Origin: Gammaproteobacteria bacterium
Lineage (GTDB): Bacteria; Pseudomonadota; Gammaproteobacteria; Ga0077554; Ga007554
Length of the DNA stretch: 64,000 nt
NCBI GenBank assembly: GCA_040183005.1
Contig: JAMPIW010000007.1
Coordinates: 1,372,188 to 1,436,187, forward strand
Direction: 5' to 3'
Below are positions 1,226-12,773 of this stretch, piece by piece (the stretch's first letter is position 1; each line of letters opens with the position of its first letter). The translations under genes were made by a program, and so were the position numbers. A model generated the notes under the pieces. That model was not told where the DNA came from. It made no database searches and worked only from the letters and a program-made list of their open reading frames with translations.

Positions 1226-2728
1226 ATGGAGTTCACAGTAAAAAGCGGCGATCCCGAAAAACAGCGCACAGCCTGCATAGTAATGGGGGTGTTCGAACCA
1301 CGGCGGCTCTCACCCGTGGCGGAGAAACTGGATGACATCACCGGCGGCTATTTGTCCAAATTGATCCGGCGCGGCGACCTGGAGGGAAAGATCGGCCAGA
1401 CGCTGCTGCTGCACGATGTTCCGAATACGCTGTGCGACCGCATACTGCTGATCGGCTGCGGGCGCGAGCGCGATCTGGGCGACACCCAGTATCGCAAAAT
1501 CGTCAACACCGCTGTCAACACCCTGAATGAGATCGGCGCGATGGAGGCCGTGTGCTATCTGACCGAACTGCACATTAAGCAGCACGATGTACCGTGGAAG
1601 GTACGCCAAACGGTGGAGGCCGCGCAAAACGCTCTGTACCGTTTCGATCAGCTCAAAAGTAAAAAAGACACCGAGCGCCGCCCGTTGCGTAAACTGGTGT
1701 TGAGCGTGCCGAGTCGCCGCGATCTAACAGAGGGCGAACGGGCACTTGAGGTCGGGCTCGCTATTGCCGCGGGCGTGACGCTGACCAAAGACCTGGGCAA
1801 CCTCCCTGCCAATATTTGCACACCCACCTACCTAGCCGAGCAGGCCAAGGAACTGGGCAAGCGTCACAAGAACATCAAGGTCGACGTGCTTGAAACCGCC
1901 GACATGGAAAAGCTCAAAATGGGCTCGCTGTTATCCGTGTCACGCGGCAGCGATCAACCTCCGAAGCTGATCACCCTCGAATACAGCGGCGGTAAAAAGC
2001 ATGACAAGCCCGTGGTACTGGTCGGCAAGGGCGTCACCTTCGATTCCGGCGGCATTTCAATCAAGCCCGCCGACAAGATGGACGAAATGAAATATGACAT
2101 GTGCGGCGCAGCCAGCGTGCTGGGCACCTTGTCCGCCGTGGCCGAAATGAAACTGCCCATCAACGTGGTCGGCATCATCCCCGCCACGGAAAACCTGCTC
2201 AACGGCCAGGCCACCAAACCAGGCGACATTGTCACCAGCCTGTCCGGCCAGACCATTGAGATCCTTAACACAGACGCAGAAGGCCGCCTGATCCTGTGCG
2301 ACGCGCTGACCTATGCCGAACGTTATGAGCCGGACACAGTCATCGATATCGCCACCCTCACCGGCGCCTGCGTCATTGCCCTTGGCAGGCACGCCAGCGG
2401 CCTACTGAGCAATCACAGCCCCTTGACACACGACCTGCTCAACGCGGGCAAGGCCAGCGGCGACCGCGCCTGGGAGCTACCCCTGTGGGATGAATACCAG
2501 GATCAGCTCAAAAGCAACTTTGCCGACATGTCCAACGTCGGCGGGCGCGAGGGCGGCACCATCACCGCCGCCTGCTTCCTGGCGCGTTTCACCAAGAAAT
2601 TCCATTGGGCGCACCTCGACATCGCCGGCACCGCCTGGCTGTCAGGCGACAAAAAGGGCGCCACCGGACGGCCCGTGCCGTTGCTGACACAGTATTTGAT
2701 GGATAGGTGTGCGGAGAAGCAGGTATAG
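1226..2728 (+). CDS. pepA: Leucyl aminopeptidase PepA (M17)
   Basis: A 500-residue protein of normal family length. It has an N-terminal macro-like domain (about 1-170) and a C-terminal dinuclear-metal peptidase domain. Seen directly: the [11 protein letters not shown] metal and catalytic lysine segment near residues 266-276 and the M17 signature NTDAEGRL starting at about residue 348. It releases N-terminal amino acids from peptides in the cytosol; in some bacteria PepA also binds DNA in site-specific recombination and pyrimidine control (family knowledge). The start ATG follows AGGAG at a normal distance. In related genomes holC normally follows directly; here about 9.5 kb of accessory DNA separates them. 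Confidence 0.96.
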
Positions 2729-2826
2729 CGGTAAAAAACGACCACACCACGGGGGGGTATGTTGCATCCAACGTAGGGTGCGCCGTACCCGTGAAGGGCA
2801 CAATGTGAAGGGCACGTTATCCCCTG

Positions 2827-3123
2827 CACGCTGACCAAGTGGCCCAATTCGTGGATGACGCCTGCGAAACCGGCACCGACTGCCGCGCCACCTCCGCCAA
2901 GCTATACACCCGCTATCAGGGCTGGGCGATGGATGCCGGAGTGCGGCGGCAACTCAACCGCAACAATTTCACCGGGCGGCTGAAACGGCTGGGCTATGCG
3001 TCGGGGCGGAGAACGAGCGGGGCGCGGATGATTGCGGGGGGGGGGAAGCCGAGGCAAGAGGTGGGTAGTTATGGCGCAGTGAAGGAGGGGGTGAAATGTC
3101 CAGATTTATCCTTATTCTTCTAG
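2827..3123 (+). pseudogene. 3' remnant of a P4-type satellite/phage primase-helicase
   Basis: Only about 95 codons remain. They resemble the C-terminal tail of phage P4 alpha / D5-type primases: an acidic start (FVDDACETGTDCRATSAKLY), a YxxW segment (YTRYQGWAMDAG), a helix ending NNFTGRLKRLGY, and an RRTSGARMI segment. The last 30 codons look out of frame after a G-rich run near 3035. No start, catalytic primase or helicase motifs are present, so it is a relict. It sits immediately after pepA and marks the left end of the island as the residue of a P4-like integrative element. Identification is by pattern recognition only. Confidence 0.65.
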
Positions 3124-3198
3124 CCTGCCAACCAGAAATTGGCGCACAATTTCCACTTCGTGACATAAAAAATAGTGATGACAGGGGAATTTGTGAGC

Positions 3199-4266
3199 AT
3201 GGATTTTTTTCAATTCACCATTCAACGGCTTGTGCTGCACAAGGTTCAGCCGCGCCAAAATCGTGCTCCAGTTGCTCCTGTTTATGGGCAGGGGCTTGTG
3301 AACATGGGGGCGGATGGGCTGCAAACCCTCCAGAATCGCATCGTCAAGGCCATGGGGAACGATTCTCGTGGGGTTGAAATGGCGATAGCCCAACATGGCG
3401 CGGGGAGTTTTTTTGCCACAGCCACGGGCCTGTTGGAATCTGATGACGTTTCATTTGTTGACAGGTCAAAACTCATTGCCGATATGCTTAACGTTGCCCA
3501 GGCAACCCGCGATTTACCAGGGGGCGCTCTGGTAGTCATGACAGGCATAACGGGCGCGAACGCAGCGCGTTTTCTGGCAGTGATTAAGGCGGAAATGCAA
3601 GACGGCTTTGATCTTGAAGAGTCCGAACAAGGGCTAACTGTTCAATATCTCAGCAATTTGATGCTGACCCCAGCGCAGCGCTTTTACAAGATCGGGCTGC
3701 TACTGGAACGCACCTACAATGAAGCTGGCGAGGAAGGAAGAGCGCCGGGCGATTTTGCCGCAATTTTGTATGACCAACAAATGAGCGCACAGGAAACCCG
3801 CTCGGCAGCCCAATATTTTTACCGGACCTTTCTTGGGTTCGAGGTGATGGACACCAGCAAGAAGCTGACCCGCGATTTCTTTTTGTTTACGCGAGAATTC
3901 ATTACTGGCCGCGATCTTGACACCGAGAAGAAGCTAGACCTTAACGATGCCTTGCGCGTCATGGTCAAGTCTGATCAGACTTTAACGCTCTCGTCCGCCG
4001 AGTATGCCGATTCCTACTTGGCCTTTGACGAAGACACCCGAGACGATTATCTGCAATTCATGCAAACCAAGGGTTTTCCTGCTCAGGCGATTAGCAAGGA
4101 CACTTCCTTGCTGGGCTCGTTGTTGAAGCGCCGCAAGGTTAAGTTCACCAGCGATGTCACCCTAACCGCTCCTGCCGACCAGTTCAAAGACTTAATACAG
4201 ATCGAGGAAAGCGGCGCGGATTCAACCCTGGTCAGAATCAAAGGCAAGTTAAGGTCAGAGGAATGA
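3199..4266 (+). CDS. NdpA/YejK-like 37-kDa nucleoid-associated family protein
   Basis: The sequence has the layout of the NA37 (YejK/NdpA) family: a beta-rich N-terminus (FTIQRLVLHKV), a central hydrophobic strand (GGALVVMTG) followed by FLAVIKAEMQDGF, a YLSNLMLTPAQRFYKIGLL segment, and a C-terminal part with FMQTKGFPAQ and a closing strand RIKGKL. At about 355 residues it is slightly longer than E. coli YejK. I chose ATG 3199 because AGGGGA lies about ten bases upstream; an in-frame ATG at 3175 has no such site. The stop overlaps the next start as ATGA, so it is translationally coupled to the RelA/SpoT-like gene. YejK binds nucleoid DNA; the role in this pairing is unknown. Confidence 0.72.
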   Translation: MDFFQFTIQRLVLHKVQPRQNRAPVAPVYGQGLVNMGADGLQTLQNRIVKAMGNDSRGVEMAIAQHGAGSFFATATGLLESDDVSFVDRSKLIADMLNVAQATRDLPGGALVVMTGITGANAARFLAVIKAEMQDGFDLEESEQGLTVQYLSNLMLTPAQRFYKIGLLLERTYNEAGEEGRAPGDFAAILYDQQMSAQETRSAAQYFYRTFLGFEVMDTSKKLTRDFFLFTREFITGRDLDTEKKLDLNDALRVMVKSDQTLTLSSAEYADSYLAFDEDTRDDYLQFMQTKGFPAQAISKDTSLLGSLLKRRKVKFTSDVTLTAPADQFKDLIQIEESGADSTLVRIKGKLRSEE

Positions 4267-5255
4267 CCGAAGCAGACTTCATTGAGCGTTTTGAGAAAGA
4301 TGCCCCAATGCTGGAGGCGTGGGGACGTTTTGTGGCCAAGGCAATCTGCGACAAACTTGGTGAATTACTGCCAGAATCTGAATCTGTTGAGACTTTTCTA
4401 AAACTTCCGGTTAGTCCGCGTGTAAAAACAGTGGAGTCGGCAATAGAAAAAGTTTTCGTTCGCAAGCCCTACCAAAACCCTTATGAAGACTTGAGCGATA
4501 AGGTCGGCGTCCGCTTTGTCGTTCTGCTTACCCAGGACATTGATAAAATCACTGGCGCCGTGGAATCAATCGAGCATTGGGCGGCATCAAAGGACAAGGA
4601 CTACGAAAAAGAGCAGGAACAAAATCCCGAATCTTTTGATTACCAGTCCGTTCATTTTGTTGTTCGCGCCAAGCAGAACTTGCCAGTAGGCGGAATAACT
4701 GTACCGGCGGGTACACCCTGCGAAGTGCAGGTTCGCAGCCTCATGCAACATGCCTACAGCGAGCTTACCCACGATGCCACCTACAAGCCCAAGGCGGCAG
4801 CTACACCACAGGTTAAGCGCTACATGGCGCGCAGTATGGCGTTGATTGAAACGACCGACGAGCTTTTCTGTACCGCAAAAAAACAAATAGATATTGCAAC
4901 AAGCCCAGAAGACGCCATTCTCAGGGATATAAAACGCCTATATGAAGTTTTGATCGGCGAAAGGGCTATTGCCACAAAAACCGAACTGGAACTTATTGAC
5001 GCCTACCGGGAAAAATTCGTACCGGAAACCGCTTCAGAAATTCAGCAGTTTTTACAGGCTACCCCGGCACTTGTTCAATTGATAAAAGATCGTCGCACAG
5101 GGAATATCCTTTATCGGCAGGCCGCTATTCCGGTTGTTTACTATCTCGTGTCTGCGCGCAGCAAGTTCACAAAAGCCCAGTGGCCGCTGGGGAGCCGGGA
5201 AAAAGACCTTGAACAGATATTTACTGACTTGGACCATTCCTACACCACGGATTAG
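4263..5255 (+). CDS. RelA/SpoT-domain nucleotidyl (pyrophosphate) transferase
   Basis: A 330-residue single-domain alarmone-synthetase-fold protein. Visible signatures: LSDKVGVRFVV (residues 77-87, the ATP/G-loop side of the fold), YQSVH (127-131), EVQVRS (154-159) with the acidic catalytic Glu, and QHAYSELTH (162-170). There is no HD hydrolase domain and no TGS or ACT domain, so it is a small synthetase type. The C-terminal ~140 residues are helical and match nothing I recognise. Family knowledge: such stand-alone synthetases make (p)ppGpp or, as toxSAS toxins, make toxic alarmones or pyrophosphorylate tRNA. Coupling to the upstream NA37-like gene by a 4-bp overlap suggests a two-protein module, possibly toxin with partner or infection-triggered. 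Confidence 0.85.
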   Translation: MTEADFIERFEKDAPMLEAWGRFVAKAICDKLGELLPESESVETFLKLPVSPRVKTVESAIEKVFVRKPYQNPYEDLSDKVGVRFVVLLTQDIDKITGAVESIEHWAASKDKDYEKEQEQNPESFDYQSVHFVVRAKQNLPVGGITVPAGTPCEVQVRSLMQHAYSELTHDATYKPKAAATPQVKRYMARSMALIETTDELFCTAKKQIDIATSPEDAILRDIKRLYEVLIGERAIATKTELELIDAYREKFVPETASEIQQFLQATPALVQLIKDRRTGNILYRQAAIPVVYYLVSARSKFTKAQWPLGSREKDLEQIFTDLDHSYTTD

Positions 5256-5267
5256 AAATAGGCGGAG
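5255..5267 (+). repeat. 13-bp direct repeat, left copy
   Basis: The sequence GAAATAGGCGGAG begins on the last base of the RelA/SpoT-like stop codon. An identical copy lies at 10212-10224, eight bases after the stop of the endonuclease III-like gene. The two copies bracket the mcrB-mcrC-nth-like operon exactly, suggesting a cassette boundary. A chance match of this length within 5 kb is possible; the position at both cassette edges is what makes it notable. Confidence 0.45.
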
Positions 5268-5529
5268 TGACGTAAGTGATGCGGTGTTCTACATTTCTCC
5301 AATTTATCGCGTAGCGGCTTATTTAGTAGTGGCTCATCTGATGCACAGCCATGTAAGGGAAGATATGTAGGGGATAGCGTCACTTGTGTCACTGCTGGCT
5401 TTTTTAGGCAAAATATTCGTATGATGCACAGTGCAAATGGTTCTGTGCGCCGGCAGAAATTCAGAGAACACATTGGAACTGGCCTCTTTGACCATGACGG
5501 GACCAGCAATTTCAGTAGGTAAGAAAACG

Positions 5530-7137
5530 ATGCTTCAACAACGCGAACAATTCAAAGCGGCGTTCATGCCGTACCTGCGACAGTTCATTCAGCAGGCACA
5601 GCTAGAGAAACCAGAACTTACCCAAGTGCCAGTCCCACCTGAACTTGGGCATATTTGTCAGGTCCACGGCATCGCCATGAAGACAAGCTTCGGAATGGGA
5701 TCGCCCACCGTAATTCCCTGGATGGCATGTTTTTATCCCGGACAAACAGCGAGCAAGGAAGGTGTCTACCCTGTCATCTTGTATCGTCGCGATAACCACA
5801 CGTTAAGCGTTTGCTATGGTGTGAGCGCCACAACCCAGGCGGCAGAAGGCGATTGGCCGAGGGAGTGGCCAGCGGAACTTGTTCAAACCCTGCCATTTTT
5901 TGGCCATAAAAAATATGGCGAATCGCACGAACTACGGCTTTTTCAAACTGATGAAAGAGAAGATTATTCGGGAATCACAGACGCATTCCTGCACGTCATG
6001 GATGATTATCTCACCTTGCCCAGAGCAACGCCAACACTGGAGCCGTTAATGTTGGAAATTTCCTTGCGAGCATTTCGAGAGCAATCACATGCAAGCTTTA
6101 CTCGGGCGGGGTTGCGAGTTTCTGATAGCCTGTTGCTCCGTTTTGCCGCATCACTCCTCGCCAAGCGTTTCCTCATCCTCACCGGCCTTTCCGGCTCGGG
6201 CAAGACAAAGCTTGCTCACGCCTTCGCCGCCTGGATTTCGGAGACCGAAGACCAGTACCGCCTCGTTGCCGTAGGCGCGGACTGGACCACGAACGAAAAC
6301 GTGGTCGGCTACCAGGACGCGCTGCAAACCGGCATTTACCGCAAGCCGTCCAACGGCGCGCTGGACGTGATCCTGCGTGCGGAGAGCGACCCGGCGCGCC
6401 CCTACTTCCTGATCCTGGACGAAATGAATCTTTCCCACGTGGAGCGCTATTTCGCCGATATTTTGTCCGCTGTTGAATCGGGGCAGGAAATCGCACTGCA
6501 TTCGGCGGCGGGGAACCTGAAAGCGAGCGAGGACGACCCCTTGCCGGTGCCGCCCAAACTCCGCCTGCCGGACAACCTGTTTATCGTCGGCACGGTGAAC
6601 GTGGACGAAACCACTTACATGTTTTCGCCCAAGGTGCTGGATCGCGCCAACGTAATCGAATTTCGCGCCACCGCTGACGACATCGCCGCGTTTCTCGATG
6701 CGCCGTCAAAGGTGGACATGGCCGCGCTGGCCGGCAAGGGCGCGGCTTTCGGCCCGGCCTTTGTAACGGAAGCCAGTGCGGACGCGCAACTGGACGGCGC
6801 GACAGCAGCGGACCTCAAGGCACGGCTAACGGAGATTTTTGGCGCGCTTGCCCCGATTGGCGCGGAATTCGGTTTCCGCACCGCGTATGAAATTACTCGC
6901 TTCACCCATTTTCACGCCAAGCTGGCTGGCAGCGGTTGGCAGTTCAAAGATGCCCTGGATGCCCAGGTGCTGCAAAAGCTGCTGCCCAAGCTGCATGGCT
7001 CGGAACGCAGGTTGGGGCCGGTGCTGAAAGCGTTGGAAGCGTTTTGCACGACGCATCAGTGCGATGACAGCCTGAAAAAAATCCGCCGCATGCAGGACCG
7101 TTTGAAAGACGGCTTCACCAGCTTCGCCGAGGCCTAA
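5530..7137 (+). CDS. McrB-like AAA+ (GTPase-type) restriction subunit with DUF3578 N-domain
   Basis: Motor subunit of a type IV-like, modification-dependent restriction system. The N-terminal ~200 residues match the MrcB_N/DUF3578 layout (GMGSPTVIPWMACFYPG, then a LYRRDNHTLSVCYG strand pair). The C-terminal AAA+ module shows Walker A GLSGSGKTK near residue 220, Walker B LILDEMN near 294, and the McrB-like sensor GTVNVDET near 354. In E. coli, McrB hydrolyses GTP and drives McrC. The preferred start is ATG 5530 (535 residues). An in-frame upstream start at 5431 would add 33 residues of unlikely sequence. The stop codon abuts the next gene's GTG directly. The 275 bp before it probably holds the operon promoter. 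Confidence 0.88.
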   Translation: MLQQREQFKAAFMPYLRQFIQQAQLEKPELTQVPVPPELGHICQVHGIAMKTSFGMGSPTVIPWMACFYPGQTASKEGVYPVILYRRDNHTLSVCYGVSATTQAAEGDWPREWPAELVQTLPFFGHKKYGESHELRLFQTDEREDYSGITDAFLHVMDDYLTLPRATPTLEPLMLEISLRAFREQSHASFTRAGLRVSDSLLLRFAASLLAKRFLILTGLSGSGKTKLAHAFAAWISETEDQYRLVAVGADWTTNENVVGYQDALQTGIYRKPSNGALDVILRAESDPARPYFLILDEMNLSHVERYFADILSAVESGQEIALHSAAGNLKASEDDPLPVPPKLRLPDNLFIVGTVNVDETTYMFSPKVLDRANVIEFRATADDIAAFLDAPSKVDMAALAGKGAAFGPAFVTEASADAQLDGATAADLKARLTEIFGALAPIGAEFGFRTAYEITRFTHFHAKLAGSGWQFKDALDAQVLQKLLPKLHGSERRLGPVLKALEAFCTTHQCDDSLKKIRRMQDRLKDGFTSFAEA

Positions 7138-9501
7138 GTGGCAGAGCCGCTTCCCGAGGCACTGGAGTTTCTGGACGAACGCGGCAACCCTGTCGCAAGC
7201 CTGGAACTTTACCCGCCCGATAGCCCGGCCAACGCGTTGGTGCGGCTGGAAGATGCGGAAGCCAGGGAGGCCGGAGAGGAGCCGGTGCAGCTCATGGAAG
7301 GGCTGCGCTACGAATACGCTTTTGTCGGCCCCGGCGCTGATAACCTGCGGCTGGAAGAAGAATTTGGTAAGGGCGCGGTCGAGCCAAGCGGCATCAAGGG
7401 GCTGGCACACTGCGGCAGCATCGCCACCGGCCTGAATACCGGGCGGCTGGCTCTGGTGGTGCGCGATGCGGCGGGAGAAATTGCCGGGCGCGCAGCGCTT
7501 GAGGTACGCTCGCGCAAGGTCACGTATCGTTACGACTACCGGCGTATGCTGGAAGACATCACCGATCAATGCGTGGCTCTGCTCATGGAACTGCGCGCCC
7601 CTACGGCCATGCGCGTAGCGCCCGACCCTGGCCGGACACCGGACACGTTGCACCAGCGCTTTGCCTTTTTGCGCGGCCTGCTTGGCTCGCGCCAGTTTCG
7701 GGATGCGCTGCACCGCATTACTACCCACCCCCACCGGCGCTGGGAGCCAGAAGAATCCGTCCACGACATGCGGCGAGGCTTCAAGCCCGACGCCAGAACA
7801 CTGCGCCAGCTTGCCCGTGCGCCCAGGCGGGTGCCGCTCCCGTCCGGCCACCCGCTGGCGAAGATCATTCCATCCCTGCCCGAGCGCATTTCGCTCCACC
7901 GCAACGCCCAGACCGAGGACACGCCGGAAAACCGCTTTGTCAGGTTCGCGCTGCAAACCTTTTCCGGTTTCCTGAACCGGATGCGCCTCAAGCTGGAAGA
8001 AGTCGGCAGCGCTGCCGACACGCGGCTGCAAGCGGAAATCGCCGCGCTGGAAAACCAGCTCGAAACGGCTTTGGCGGCAGACGTGTTCCGCAGCGTTTCC
8101 GACCCGGACATGCTGCCGCTGGGTAGCCCTGTTTTGCAGCGCAAGGAAGGCTATCGCGAGGTTTATCAGGCGTGGCTCAAGTTCGACATGGCGGCGCGCC
8201 TGGTATGGCACGGCGGCGATGACGTGTACGGCGCAGGCCAGCGCGACATCGCCACGCTGTACGAATACTGGGTTTTCTTCAAGCTGCTGGACATCGTTTC
8301 GGCGGTGTTCAAGCTGGAAAAACCTGCCGCCCATGCACTGATCGAAGAAACTGCGGACGGCTTCGGCCTCAAGCTCAAATCCGGCGAGCAACTGGCGTTC
8401 GATGGCGTAACTTTTGGCGGTGCTCGTCCGCTGCGAGTGCGTTTCAGCTACAACCGCAGCTTTTCTCACAATGCCGCGCCGGATCGGGTTGGATCGTGGA
8501 CCGAGCGCATGCGCCCGGACTACTCGTTGAGCCTGTGGCCGGCAGAGTTTTCCGAAGCAGAAGCGGAAGCTCAGGAAATCATGGCGCATGTGCATTTTGA
8601 TGCCAAATACCGCATCGACAACGTGGAGCAGCTTTTTGGGCGCGAGGACGAAAGTTTGGGTGCCGCTGGCGTGAATAGTGACTTGGCTGAAGAAAAGCAG
8701 GAGCAGCGCGAAGGCCGCTACAAACGCGCCGACCTGTTGAAAATGCACGCTTACCGCGATGCCATCCGCCGCACCCAAGGCGCTTATGTGCTCTACCCCG
8801 GCGATTCATCGCGCCAGTGGCAGGGCTACCATGAAATTTTGCCAGGGCTGGGCGCGTTCCCGCTCAAGCCCGGCAACGGCGCACAGGAAGTGGAAAACTT
8901 TATCCGCGAGGTTGTCGCCCACGCATGCAACCGTGCGACTGCGCGGGAGCGCCAGAGCTACCATACCTACCAAACGCAGGAAGCGCCAGCGAGCTATGCG
9001 GTGTTGAGCAAGTTGCCCGAGTTTGATGGCGCTACCCGCAGGCGCGCGCAACCTCCTGCCGAAACGCATGTGCTGGTTGGTTGGTACAAGGACGAGGCAC
9101 ATTTGAAATGGGTGCTGGCCCAGAAGCTATATAACTTCCGCATGGACACGAAAGCTGGCTCGCTACGGCTCACGCCGGAAGTTTCAGGCGCACAGTATCT
9201 GTTGCTGCACAGCTACAAGGGAAAAACGAGTTCCGGCCTTTTCCATGTCGCCAAGGAAGGACCGCGCGTGCTTTCACGAGAAAAGCTGAAGGAAAAGGGC
9301 TATCCCGGCGCACCATCCCAACCTTTCTACCTAGTCTATAACGTAGTGCCAGCGCCCGGATTTGATGGCTACGAATGGGATTACTCGAAACTGCCCGAGC
9401 GCCTGCAAAATCGCCAGTCCGCCGAGCCGCAAACAGTCACGCTCGACGAGTTGATGGCAGTAGCCAAGGAGAACCTGCTGGCTGGCGCTGGGGGCGGCTG
9501 A
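7138..9501 (+). CDS. McrC-like DUF2357 / PD-(D/E)XK nuclease subunit
   Basis: A 787-residue partner of the McrB-like motor. The N-terminal half has the DUF2357 character (YEYAFVGPGAD, then a helical RRYDYR-like region near 130). The C-terminal half carries a PD-(D/E)XK nuclease core: RPDYSLSLW near residue 458, then HFDAKYR near 486, and a conserved KMHAYRDAIRRT helix. The last ~170 residues (from about HVLVGWYKDEAHLKWVL) have a beta-rich PUA/EVE-like look that could read a modified base; that assignment is tentative. The start is GTG directly after the mcrB stop, so expression is coupled. Long antisense ORFs across this GC-rich gene are shadows. Confidence 0.85.
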   Translation: MAEPLPEALEFLDERGNPVASLELYPPDSPANALVRLEDAEAREAGEEPVQLMEGLRYEYAFVGPGADNLRLEEEFGKGAVEPSGIKGLAHCGSIATGLNTGRLALVVRDAAGEIAGRAALEVRSRKVTYRYDYRRMLEDITDQCVALLMELRAPTAMRVAPDPGRTPDTLHQRFAFLRGLLGSRQFRDALHRITTHPHRRWEPEESVHDMRRGFKPDARTLRQLARAPRRVPLPSGHPLAKIIPSLPERISLHRNAQTEDTPENRFVRFALQTFSGFLNRMRLKLEEVGSAADTRLQAEIAALENQLETALAADVFRSVSDPDMLPLGSPVLQRKEGYREVYQAWLKFDMAARLVWHGGDDVYGAGQRDIATLYEYWVFFKLLDIVSAVFKLEKPAAHALIEETADGFGLKLKSGEQLAFDGVTFGGARPLRVRFSYNRSFSHNAAPDRVGSWTERMRPDYSLSLWPAEFSEAEAEAQEIMAHVHFDAKYRIDNVEQLFGREDESLGAAGVNSDLAEEKQEQREGRYKRADLLKMHAYRDAIRRTQGAYVLYPGDSSRQWQGYHEILPGLGAFPLKPGNGAQEVENFIREVVAHACNRATARERQSYHTYQTQEAPASYAVLSKLPEFDGATRRRAQPPAETHVLVGWYKDEAHLKWVLAQKLYNFRMDTKAGSLRLTPEVSGAQYLLLHSYKGKTSSGLFHVAKEGPRVLSREKLKEKGYPGAPSQPFYLVYNVVPAPGFDGYEWDYSKLPERLQNRQSAEPQTVTLDELMAVAKENLLAGAGGG

Positions 9502-9502
9502 C

Positions 9503-10204
9503 GTGGGATCGCGCAAATACCCTGTGGCAGTCAGAGAAGTTGCAGGGGCTTTGAAATACCGCTATCACGATTTCGACCATTACAACCTTAAAGACCCGCT
9601 GGACGAGCTGCTGTTCATTATTTGCAGCACGAAAACCGAAGAAGCGAGCTACCGGAATTCCTTTCGTGCCCTGAAAGAATCTTTCCCCACCCACCTCAAG
9701 ATCGCCGAAGCACCAGCCGAATACATCGCCCAGACCATCGCAAGGGGCGGATTATCCAACCAGAAAGCCAAAGCCATCCGCAATCTGCTGGATGCTGTCG
9801 TGGCACGGTTTGGCGAACCAAGCCTCGAACCACTGCGTGCGATGAGCGATAAGGAAGCGGAAGATTTTTTGCTGTCGTTGCCCGGTGTCGGCAAGAAAAT
9901 CGCGCGGTGCGTTCTGATGTACTCGCTAGACCGGCAGGTTTTCCCGGTTGACACGCACTGCTGGCGCATCGTCCGGCGACTGGGATGGGTCAGGCCAACG
10001 CAAAAAGACCGGCATTGCGCGCCGCGCGACATGGACCGCCTGCAATCCAAAATCCCCCCAGAGCTTCGTTACTCGCTACACGTGAACATGATTTCGCTAG
10101 GGCGCGAGATTTGCACTGCGGGTGCACCCCGTTGCGATGAATGCCCGTTAGCCGACTGGTGCCCCAAGATTGGCGTGGCTCGTGGCAAGGGAAGGGGGAA
10201 ATAG
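9503..10204 (+). CDS. Endonuclease III-like DNA glycosylase/AP lyase in the McrBC operon
   Basis: A 233-residue HhH-GPD protein. The helix-hairpin-helix LPGVGKKIA near residue 125 carries the lysine that corresponds to the catalytic Lys of E. coli endonuclease III. VDTH near residue 149 carries the catalytic Asp. The C-terminus has a [4Fe-4S] ligand set spaced C-x6-C-x2-C-x5-C (about 204, 211, 214, 220). All catalytic features are therefore intact. Endonuclease III excises oxidised pyrimidines; here, one base after the DUF2357 nuclease stop, it is more likely part of the restriction module, perhaps excising a modified pyrimidine. The start is GTG. The housekeeping nth would normally be elsewhere in the chromosome. 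Confidence 0.9.
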   Translation: MGSRKYPVAVREVAGALKYRYHDFDHYNLKDPLDELLFIICSTKTEEASYRNSFRALKESFPTHLKIAEAPAEYIAQTIARGGLSNQKAKAIRNLLDAVVARFGEPSLEPLRAMSDKEAEDFLLSLPGVGKKIARCVLMYSLDRQVFPVDTHCWRIVRRLGWVRPTQKDRHCAPRDMDRLQSKIPPELRYSLHVNMISLGREICTAGAPRCDECPLADWCPKIGVARGKGRGK

Positions 10205-10211
10205 TAGCGCT

Positions 10212-10224
10212 GAAATAGGCGGAG
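10212..10224 (+). repeat. 13-bp direct repeat, right copy
   Basis: Identical to 5255-5267 (GAAATAGGCGGAG). It lies just after the stop of the endonuclease III-like gene and before the convergent gene on the other strand, so the repeat pair flanks the three-gene cassette. Confidence 0.45.
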
Positions 10225-10265
10225 GACTGATCGGTAGCGCTGAGGTTGATTCGGAAAATGTGAGA

Positions 10266-11435
10266 CTATGCGGCGCTGCTGGAAGACTCAGTAGCCGATG
10301 GCTCGCGGGATACCAGCGAAACGTCAATCTCGCCATTCTTGATGTTTTCCCTGCCACTAATCGTGACGCACTGATCGGTATTGAACACCTCCAACACATC
10401 GTCGAAAAATTCCTGCGGAAACCGGCAAACGTGATCTTTGCTGTCGTCCGTTTCTCGCAGGGTGAAGGACAGATCGTCCTTGTCGAGCTCGCGCACCAAC
10501 CCTGTGACTTTGGTGATTCGCTCCTGGGATACGCGCGCTTTGCCAAGCGCCCGACGTACACGCTTTGATGTGTCACGGGTGAGCTGATAACGGGCGTGAC
10601 CAGCACGGAAAATCCGGCCACGTAGCTCCACAGACTTGACGATGCCCGTTTGCGGCGGCACAAGCTTTTCGAGTGCTTCCAGCAGGTCAATGTCCAGCGG
10701 TTCGTTGTCTTCTTCGGGCTTGGCATCTATGGCCCACGAAAGTGCTTGCTCCAACAGCTTGCCGATTTCATCGAACTCACTGCCAAGTTCTTCCGGGGCT
10801 TCGCCTGCGCCCAAATTCAACTGCTTGCGATCGGGAAGTCGAAAGGCAATCTCGAAGCTGTTGTAGGCAACACCTTGCATGGGCAAGTCGTAGAATTGTC
10901 GGATAACATTAGCCTTGCGCCCTTGCGCGCGCGCCGCCTGAAATACTCGCCCAGCTATCTTTTTGAGCGCCGTTGTCGCGCCATCGACCACTTGCCGTAT
11001 CACGCTGGCGGGTACGGTGCCTTCGCCCAAGCCGTCGCCAATCGCACGAAGCACAAAAACAGGTTCAAGGTGCGGCCACAGCATCACGCCCGGCCGCGGG
11101 AGAGTATCTACAGGCGCATCGGCTAGCGTACCCTTCCAGGCCGCAACAGGATTGCCGTCATATTGCGTATCGAGAAACCACACCCAAGGTTGATTAAGGG
11201 CGTCGCGGACAGATCGCACGCCTGATTTCATCAGATCAATAATGCTCGTGTTAGTTGGCGCGACGATGTACCGGCACAAGCCATCCTGTTCATCAGCCAA
11301 ATAAAACAGCAGTTCCCCCATGACACTGCGCGCCGTGAAAATGCGCGGCCCATCAAACTCGTAAAGAATCTCCTCCGGGGAAATTCCCTGGAAACTTTCT
11401 ACGTCAAATTGTGGAGCGGTTACCGTCCAATTCAT
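10266..11435 (-). CDS. Uncharacterised defence-island protein (DUF6575-like N-terminus)
   Basis: About 389 residues with no catalytic motif I recognise. The N-terminal ~100 residues (EILYEFDGPRIFTARS, then strands ending RYIVAPTNT and a SVRDALNQPWVWFLD segment) remind me of the DUF6575 type; this is a weak recollection, not a search result. The middle is helical (VVDGATTALKKIAGRVFQAA) and the C-terminal third is beta-rich, ending in a Ser-rich tail. I chose ATG 11435, two bases after the upstream stop; an in-frame GTG at 11447 would overlap it. It is convergent with the mcrB-mcrC-nth operon and forms a two-gene unit with 11437-11808. Function unknown. Confidence 0.7.
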   Translation of the reverse strand: MNWTVTAPQFDVESFQGISPEEILYEFDGPRIFTARSVMGELLFYLADEQDGLCRYIVAPTNTSIIDLMKSGVRSVRDALNQPWVWFLDTQYDGNPVAAWKGTLADAPVDTLPRPGVMLWPHLEPVFVLRAIGDGLGEGTVPASVIRQVVDGATTALKKIAGRVFQAARAQGRKANVIRQFYDLPMQGVAYNSFEIAFRLPDRKQLNLGAGEAPEELGSEFDEIGKLLEQALSWAIDAKPEEDNEPLDIDLLEALEKLVPPQTGIVKSVELRGRIFRAGHARYQLTRDTSKRVRRALGKARVSQERITKVTGLVRELDKDDLSFTLRETDDSKDHVCRFPQEFFDDVLEVFNTDQCVTISGRENIKNGEIDVSLVSREPSATESSSSAA

Positions 11436-11436
11436 T

Positions 11437-11808
11437 TTATTGAGCACCTACGCATACGAACGGGGCTACCCGATCAATACCATCATACGGCCACCAAGTG
11501 GTATGCGTTGGAAGTGTACCCTTGGTAAGAAGCGTCTTGCCGTGACCCGAATTGAGTTCACCACGGCAAATCAGCTTGCCATGCTTCGGAAATAACTCGG
11601 TTTGGTGAATGGCATCATCCAATGTCCTCAATAGGGACAAGCCAGCGCGCTTGCACGGGTTTGCCTTCGGGGCTGCGCCGCGTTCAGAATAAGACTTGAA
11701 ATCATCCACGCCCGGTGGGTTATTGCTGACGACACGAAAACACTCGCCCTGCGCGTCTTGCGCATTGGCGGGAGGGCATTCAGGAGGCCAACTTTCCGGG
11801 AACTGCAT
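11437..11808 (-). CDS. Small uncharacterised protein, first gene of a two-gene unit
   Basis: A 123-residue soluble protein without signal peptide or membrane segment. It has a Cys/Pro-rich start, a basic middle (CKRAGLSLLRTLDDAIHQ) and a Trp/His C-terminus (HTTWWPYDGIDR). I do not recognise a domain. It ends two bases before the 389-residue protein on the same strand, so the two are co-transcribed. No good ribosome-binding site precedes ATG 11808. A paired small and large gene in a defence island often means toxin-antitoxin or sensor-effector, but nothing in the sequence proves this. Confidence 0.6.
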   Translation of the reverse strand: MQFPESWPPECPPANAQDAQGECFRVVSNNPPGVDDFKSYSERGAAPKANPCKRAGLSLLRTLDDAIHQTELFPKHGKLICRGELNSGHGKTLLTKGTLPTHTTWWPYDGIDRVAPFVCVGAQ

Positions 11809-11860
11809 AATTTATTTTCTGAAAATACACGAATAGGCGCAATGATAAACGGTTTTGTCA

Positions 11861-12124
11861 TCAACCGACAACAAACTGCAGTCTATCGGAGCCTTCGAGG
11901 CTGAACCAGCTACCGACGCCATGAAACCGCCACACAGGACGATGTTCGATAAAACCCATGGCAACCTGGCCGTAATCAACCACGTTAGCTACACCCGGAC
12001 CGAAACCCACTAGAGGCAAAGGCTCAGCCGCAATACAACTGCCGGAAACGGCAAGCAATCCGAAAAAGGCCGCTTTTTTGATGAGAAACTGAAATTCCAG
12101 GCAGCGTATTATAGCGGACCCCAT
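11861..12124 (-). pseudogene. Truncated exported protein at island edge (acyloxyacyl hydrolase-like start)
   Basis: The reading frame encodes a signal peptide-like stretch (KKAAFFGLLAVSGSCIAAEP) followed by about 50 residues resembling the first strands of a PagL/acyloxyacyl hydrolase or similar small outer-membrane barrel (GVGSWFSLEGSDRLQFV). It then stops, far short of the ~170-190 residues expected. The truncation point faces the accessory island, so insertion or associated deletion probably cut it. No clear start codon with ribosome-binding site was found. The family name is tentative; the export signal and truncation are clear. The rest of 12125-12333 is AT-rich, non-coding leader in front of holC. 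Confidence 0.45.
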
Positions 12125-12333
12125 TGCGCATCGAACTGCGGCAGACAGCTATGAAACAGACTTCAAACCAACCACCAACTCTTCTATAATTTATTGTTTT
12201 TATTGAATTTTTTATATTTATTGGCCACCAATACTTATAAACGTACACTACCACTCCCTCGGGTGTCAAGCCATTCTCTCACACAACTTCGTGATAAGAT
12301 TAGCATTTATCCATTGATCTTCGCCTTGAGACC

Positions 12334-12773
12334 ATGACTCGCATCGACTTCTATATCCTCCCCGACGCGCAGGTGCAGAGCAGGCCATTACTCGCCTGTC
12401 GCTTGGCAGACAAGGCCTACCGGCTGGGTCATCGCGTTTATATCCACACTGAATCCCAGGAGCAAGCCGTCTACATGGATGATTTACTGTGGACGTTCAG
12501 CCAGGGAAGCTTCCTGCCTCATGCACTGGTGGAGGCAACCGGCGAGCCGCCACCGGTATTAATCGGCCATGACGCAGCTCCGTTGGCTGGCACGGATGTA
12601 TTAATCAATCTGGCAGGCAGCGTACCGTCATTTTTCGACCGCTTCGAGCGCGTCGCGGAGATCGTCGATCAAAGCGATGCGCAAAAACAGGTGGCGCGAG
12701 AACGTTACCGCTTTTATCGTGATCGCGGTTATGCTTTGCAGTCGCATAACGTTCCAACACCAGGCATTGAGAC

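Follow-up and report, generated by a model that had tools for sequence, protein, structure and literature searches.

The window, by which we mean the whole stretch of 64,000 nucleotides that was analysed, contains two adjacent open reading frames, referred to here as gene A and gene B (Table 1). A 123-residue and a ~389-residue protein one base apart had been predicted from the sequence alone, and both open reading frames were confirmed: the gap from A to B is 1 base, with the ATG of B (11435) standing one base past the TAA of A. The longest open reading frame of B starts from a GTG at 11447 and comprises 393 aa, against 389 aa from the ATG. As the original prediction had it, the pair is convergent with a restriction cassette on the opposite strand. 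The five family-matched genes of this cassette (3175-10204) are all on the forward strand, 61 bp away, and encode a 37-kD nucleoid-associated (NA37)-like protein, a RelA/SpoT-domain protein, an McrB-like ATPase (match to PDC-M26A, E 5.5e-42), a DUF2357+PDDEXK_7 McrC-like nuclease and an endonuclease III-like glycosylase. It looks unusual for an McrBC-like system to be accompanied by a glycosylase and a (p)ppGpp-synthetase-like protein.

The defence-type island in which the pair had been placed is real. It measures 9.6 kb and was missing from three compared genomes of the same genus. In these genomes pepA and holC are adjacent, with a spacing of 23, 189 and ~430 bp, and we therefore regard 2729-12333 as an insertion in this strain. 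A search for shared exact words of >=10 bp between the two island ends (2601-3300 and 11801-12340) returned none. The numbers of promoter-like and terminator-like sequences were close to those counted in shuffled sequence. Directly upstream of A an 87-aa open reading frame was seen on the reverse strand (11861-12124), with a signal-peptide-like stretch by eye; it is perhaps the remnant of an exported-protein gene.

Table 1. Features of the A/B locus, in positions of the window.
Feature	Position	Strand	Description	Basis
Gene A	11437-11808	-	123 aa, ATG start; presumed antitoxin with ADP-ribosyltransferase-like predicted fold	Open reading frame, PD-T4-10_A family, structure model
Gene B	10266-11435	-	389 aa from the ATG at 11435; presumed toxin/effector	Open reading frame, DUF6575/PD-T4-10_B N-domain match
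B N-domain, residues 1-126	11058-11435	-	DUF6575-like; common to all B classes	
B C-terminal OB fold, residues 302-383	10287-10532	-	Predicted OB fold	Predicted model and structural alignment
A residue R25	11734-11736	-	Invariant, strand 1	
A residue S58	11635-11637	-	Invariant, strand 2	
A residue H102	11503-11505	-	Invariant, strand 5	
Island with the pair	2729-12333	.	Strain-specific, between pepA and holC	Genus comparison

The genome itself contained one match for each of the two genes at E<=0.001. Relatives elsewhere had identities of 50-52% for A and 61-62% for B. Among the three viral or prophage-like copies L022, L043 and L044, dN was 0.07-0.12 and dS 0.48-1.8. Since relatives exist and dN is far below dS among these copies, the coding of A and B is not a product of chance.

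The characterised system to which the pair is distantly related is PD-T4-10, a toxin-antitoxin system of E. coli that works by abortive infection against T-even phages (Vassallo 2022, PMC9519451). In the passages of that paper used here B is toxic and required for T4 resistance, A neutralises B and could not be deleted, and a predicted function is given for neither protein. DUF6575 is listed there as one domain found in the 21 systems, with no indication of the protein that bears it (PMC9519451). In the literature searched, this paper was the sole source found for PD-T4-10 or DUF6575.

Four classes of B were distinguished by what follows a common N-domain: the window class (the window, L022, L043, L044 and G428), a Peptidase_M78/ImmA-IrrE class (G418, G410 and G426), a PD-T4-10_B class (L013, G520, G489 and G660) and a DUF6575-proper class (L003, L016 and L017). 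The profiles for pairing were trained on 14 uninterrupted pairs together with the B of G428 and G385. Because they were trained on the pairs themselves, we took searches in which a whole class had been left out as the fair test.

The A of the window matched the PADLOC model PD-T4-10_A (PDLC04023) weakly, at E 0.0027, and the A of L044, a bridging relative, at E 6.5e-5. Direct alignment of window-class A with PD-T4-10-type A by hhalign gave E 6e-15. When the class concerned was left out of the profile, window-class A was recovered at 2.6e-30 to 1.9e-34 (best E among 80 shuffles 75) and PD-T4-10-class A at 1.6e-6 to 2.9e-15 (no match among 80 shuffles); A was recovered in every class, most weakly in L016 (6.5e-4). 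Both models identify L013 as a PD-T4-10 pair (9.5e-33 for A, 4.5e-52 for B). The B of L035-L037 matched PD-T4-10_B at 6.6e-23 to 1.4e-27; the A of L036 matched PD-T4-10_A at 5.6e-4, and the PD-T4-10-type A of L035 had no match to that model at E<=0.1. As judged from these profile comparisons, A and PD-T4-10_A form one family.

T4 Mrh (Pfam T4_MRH) was considered and dropped, as its E of 0.079 to the A of L013 was too weak. In PHROGs the A of the window, L044 and L036 had no match at E<=1 and that of L013 a best match at 0.15. The sequence search of the PDB gave no match for B and one chance match for A (E 0.62), and a search of genome contigs with A returned two Magnetococcales seeds only. No relative was found in phages with the window B or with the B and A of L013, in plasmids with the A of L013, in E. 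coli genomes with L013 DNA, or in viral contigs with PD-T4-10-type B and A and with the window B alone.

For B the kinship was confined to the N-domain. The window B matched Pfam DUF6575 (PF20215) at E 0.017 with 15 bits, below the gathering cut-off of 26.6, and had no match to the PD-T4-10_B models at E<=1. Relatives did match PD-T4-10_B (G428 5.7e-4, G385 1.9e-6, G418 of locus L020 0.0021, L044 0.0027), in every case confined to residues about 20-140. Against three DUF6575 proteins above the Pfam cut-off, hhalign of the window-class N-domain gave E 6e-9 across 105 columns. This N-domain was recovered at 2.3e-20 to 3.2e-13 by profiles lacking its class (best of 100 shuffles 22), and a profile of the other classes found the window B at 7.4e-19. 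With each class omitted in turn, the N-domain was recovered in all proteins but three of PD-T4-10 type: the values for the PD-T4-10 N-domains were 2.4e-9, 0.024, 0.036 and 0.47, where 80 shuffles reached 1.4 at best. When the window B class was aligned directly with the PD-T4-10 B class, hhalign gave E 0.13. Both A and the B N-domain are thus common to the window pair and PD-T4-10, the N-domain thinly so. The two systems are also alike in gene order, A before B, touching or overlapping. They differ in the C-terminal two thirds of B, which are unrelated by sequence and in the window end in a predicted OB fold. That the window pair is PD-T4-10 itself was rejected, since the full-length B is not PD-T4-10_B and the C-terminal parts are dissimilar. 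The DUF6575 proteins with an upstream partner (L003, L016 and L017) likewise have the A family and the N-domain in common with the window pair and differ from it in the C-terminal part of B, and the window B, as given above, stays below the Pfam cut-off.

A was found directly upstream of the N-domain, on the same strand, at 17 of 20 distinct places. Searches starting from B found A at 8/11 new places, and the three places without it all held short proteins (L002 206 aa, L018 135 aa, L045 160 aa). Searches starting from A found an N-domain downstream, again at 8/11 new places; the matches at the remaining three were weak (E 2e-6 to 1.9e-4) and contained in-frame stops. Five further B matches (E 0.003-0.01) had neither A nor N-domain and were taken as chance. 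Among the 14 uninterrupted pairs, the B of L022 runs off the contig end. Outside these pairs, both genes are truncated in G370, and G385 retains only a short B and a weakly matching fragment of A (E 0.0055). In G428 (L039 6727-8344) a frameshift divides A and B is open, so that the presumed antitoxin may have been lost. Across the 14 pairs, pairwise distances of A correlated with those of the N-domain (r 0.88), as they did after thinning to 12 (r 0.71), values reached by 0/10000 permutations each. This correlation shows, at the level of sequence, shared descent of the pair, not contact.

The structure of A was predicted from a six-sequence alignment, with a pLDDT of 90.3 and a pTM of 0.83; the five models scored 90, 80, 73, 35 and 35. 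Foldseek with this model listed nothing at E<=0.001. VIA-align was then used to re-align 568 chains from Foldseek's own list, which left 43 listed entries. ADP-ribosyltransferases (ARTs), identified by their titles or as known members of the superfamily, made up 37 of them. Tpt1/KptA came first, with a Z of 7.3 and 85 residues aligned at 2.9 A. The A chains of heat-labile and cholera toxins reached a Z of 6.3, and the list further held Tre toxins (6.2 and 6.0), a guanine-specific ART (6.0), RES proteins (4.8 and 4.6), and tankyrase and PARP (2.1-3.2). The titles of the other six entries (2aua, 8gug, 6b12, 6kyf, 4eyy and 3aq3) do not say ART, and several of the six are probably ART-like. A best Z below 8 lies where a common arrangement alone could account for a match; the case for an ART fold therefore rests on the uniform match list together with the invariant residues. 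According to the predicted model, A adopts an ART fold.

Only three residues, R25, S58 and H102, were invariant in 14/14 A proteins, and they are located on model strands 1, 2 and 5, the strands that carry the catalytic triads of ARTs. By the range offsets of VIA-align, and if strand 1 is ungapped, R25 aligns to residue 7 of the cholera and heat-labile A chains and to residue 9 of pertussis S1, which we take to be the catalytic arginines. One listed match is an Arg7Lys mutant, and its title mentions the active-site loop. In R25, A has the strand-1 arginine of the R-S-E ARTs in all 14 proteins. S58 is located on the next core strand and may correspond to the ART serine. A catalytic glutamate was looked for and no invariant Glu was found among the 14 proteins. 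That Arg and Ser are conserved speaks for a ligand pocket; the missing Glu speaks against classical ADP-ribosyl transfer. A resembles the ART superfamily (Tpt1/KptA, cholera-type A chains, RES and Tre) in predicted fold and invariant Arg, and perhaps in the invariant Ser on the next core strand. It differs from these ARTs in lacking the Glu, in having an invariant His on strand 5, and in being a presumed antitoxin and not a toxin or an RNA-processing enzyme. The absence of a familiar catalytic motif, noted in the original prediction, holds at the sequence level; structure prediction brought out the fold of A.

As a relative of PD-T4-10, the pair probably works as a toxin-antitoxin module in abortive infection, with A as an ART-fold antitoxin and B as the toxin, the roles being inferred by transfer from PD-T4-10. 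The original prediction for this locus, either a system not yet characterised or a pair of toxin-antitoxin type in a defence island, is supported by the island, the pairing, the mobile relatives and the kinship to PD-T4-10. It needs correcting in two respects: the kind of system is partly known, and A has a predicted fold that can be recognised. The profile and co-occurrence searches suggested at the time are those reported above, in which both genes proved to be PD-T4-10 relatives and A mostly preceded the N-domain. The homologues did not turn up mainly unpaired and outside defence or mobile contexts, three short N-domain proteins without A aside, within a biased sample of contexts.

The fold could also be read the other way round. 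RES and Tre are ART-fold toxins, both occur among the VIA rows of A, and in RES pairs the ART-fold proteins are toxins, not antitoxins. A would then be a small NAD+-using ART-fold toxin and B an antitoxin or regulator, in the M78 class a protease-type antitoxin. Three B proteins do carry an M78/ImmA-IrrE peptidase fused to the DUF6575-like N-domain (L020 642-2387, L021 5025-7034 and L034 3037-4809), with A upstream in 3/3, and the B of L034 matches PD-Lambda-2_B (4.9e-5), which belongs to a different system and is described in the passages used here as an antitoxin-like peptidase (PMC9519451). We hold such a reversal to be unlikely, because in the passages on PD-T4-10 it is B that is toxic and A that neutralises and is undeletable (PMC9519451), because A has no invariant Glu, and because the varied C-termini of B suit effectors better than antitoxins.

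Past residue 120 no class of B recognised another; cross-matches were worse than the best shuffle, and hhalign gave E 0.1-0.6. A shared middle domain suspected by eye was dropped, no cross-match being better than shuffles. The model of B had a pLDDT of 71-92 per ten residues over 1-110, below 50 over 120-307, 48 over 301-310 and 60-79 over 311-380. The C-terminal region aligned to SilF and PriB with a VIA Z of 10.4, and OB-fold rows filled the structural match list for B. Foldseek listed SilF, IF1, RPA and SSB for this region, none at E<=0.001. We predict with fair confidence, from the model, that B ends in an OB fold. Structure prediction and comparison, which had been suggested for both proteins, led to ART folds for A, in the model, and to an OB fold for the end of B.

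OB folds of this kind often bind nucleic acids, and the resemblance to SSB, PriB and RPA would suit a two-part defence that acts directly, A modifying or loading B and B binding phage nucleic acid, with no toxin-antitoxin behaviour. The OB region also matches the PADLOC candidate PDC-M32A weakly (E 1.4e-4). By eye PDC-M32A lies behind an HsdM-like gene in L056-L058 and before an HsdS-like gene in L057 and L058, and so between the two in 2/4 loci and beside the HsdM-like gene in a third; L059 showed neither. It resembles an accessory protein of type I restriction. Unlike the window B, it had no A or N-domain match alongside in the four loci (L056-L059), and the reading of B as a restriction accessory, once examined, was demoted to a rival. 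Direct action of this sort seems quite improbable to us, since the characterised relative PD-T4-10 is a toxin-antitoxin abortive-infection system in the passages used (PMC9519451).

Two of the three closest copies are in prophage-like contigs: the pair adjoins an integrase in L043 and L044, with Phage_GPD further out in both and Phage_P2_GpU, also a tail gene, in L043. The third, L022, comes from a viral contig of 4 kb that has an AAA_24 gene; an integrase was not seen within the sequence available. L003, L016 and L017 are plasmid records (Oscillatoria, Arthrobacter and Rhodococcus plasmids); their A is annotated as hypothetical in L003 and unannotated in L016, and the L017 record is without annotation. 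In G428 the neighbours are a resolvase-like open reading frame (by eye) and a PLD-helicase restriction-like gene. These mobile contexts form a biased sample, as plasmid and viral collections were searched deliberately. Among 398 genomes of the phylum A was found in 9 at E<=0.001, two of them the genomes with truncated genes, G370 and G385. The window class is rare, being confined to its own genome among 369 genomes of its class, as might be expected of cargo unrelated to phage defence that came to lie beside the restriction cassette by chance. We regard this as very improbable, given that relatives lie on prophage-like contigs, on plasmids and beside the PLD-helicase restriction-like gene, and given the kinship to the validated defence system PD-T4-10.

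For the toxin-antitoxin module that we favour, the following course of events may be proposed. The N-domain of B would dock A, and A would hold B inactive by binding this conserved domain, possibly with NAD+ in its pocket. The C-terminal part of B, ending in the OB fold, would do the damage: phage infection would disturb A (or NAD+), B would be freed and the cell would stop. The docking, the target of the OB fold and the trigger are inferred. With A as the constant partner of a constant N-domain and with the end of B varying, silencing of B by A via the N-domain would be the simplest model. Our reading of the sequences is of a constant antitoxin and docking domain that may serve exchangeable effectors.

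T-even phages carry ADP-ribosyltransferases of their own. A bolder version, which we consider doubtful, would make A an NAD+-using ART-fold antitoxin that silences B by binding or modifying it, type-VII-like and of a new enzyme class with R-S-H in place of R-S-E, on a modular platform with at least four effector ends. If this were true, T-even phages, with their own ADP-ribosyltransferases or maybe by lowering NAD+, would be sensed through A.

Within the literature searched, the predicted ART fold of the A family, the R-S-H set and the constant-N/variable-C arrangement of B appear to be new. An ART-fold antitoxin was not found in that literature, most subscription papers lying outside the search, and would, if true, invert the usual role of the fold in toxin-antitoxin pairs. 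The fold and the R-S-H set offer a concrete and mutable hypothesis of mechanism for PD-T4-10-type pairs. From the arrangement of B one would expect the antitoxin to act on the N-domain, and a search behind this domain to uncover more effectors.

Parts of the pair were also seen on their own. On a Rhizobium plasmid (L002 3376-4531) the 206-aa N-domain protein without A is preceded by an open reading frame that is DUF262/GmrSD-like by eye. A Salmonella record (L019 2480-3121) holds a 213-aa protein between ogrK and fieF, near phage tail genes, that matches the C-terminal part of the L013 B alone (23.6% identity); no A and no N-domain match was found in the stretch examined. A 45-kb viral contig (L045 3131-3613) carries a lone DUF6575 N-domain of 160 aa with a C-terminal membrane helix by eye and no A match in the stretch examined; this protein is possibly a decoy or an anti-defence protein.
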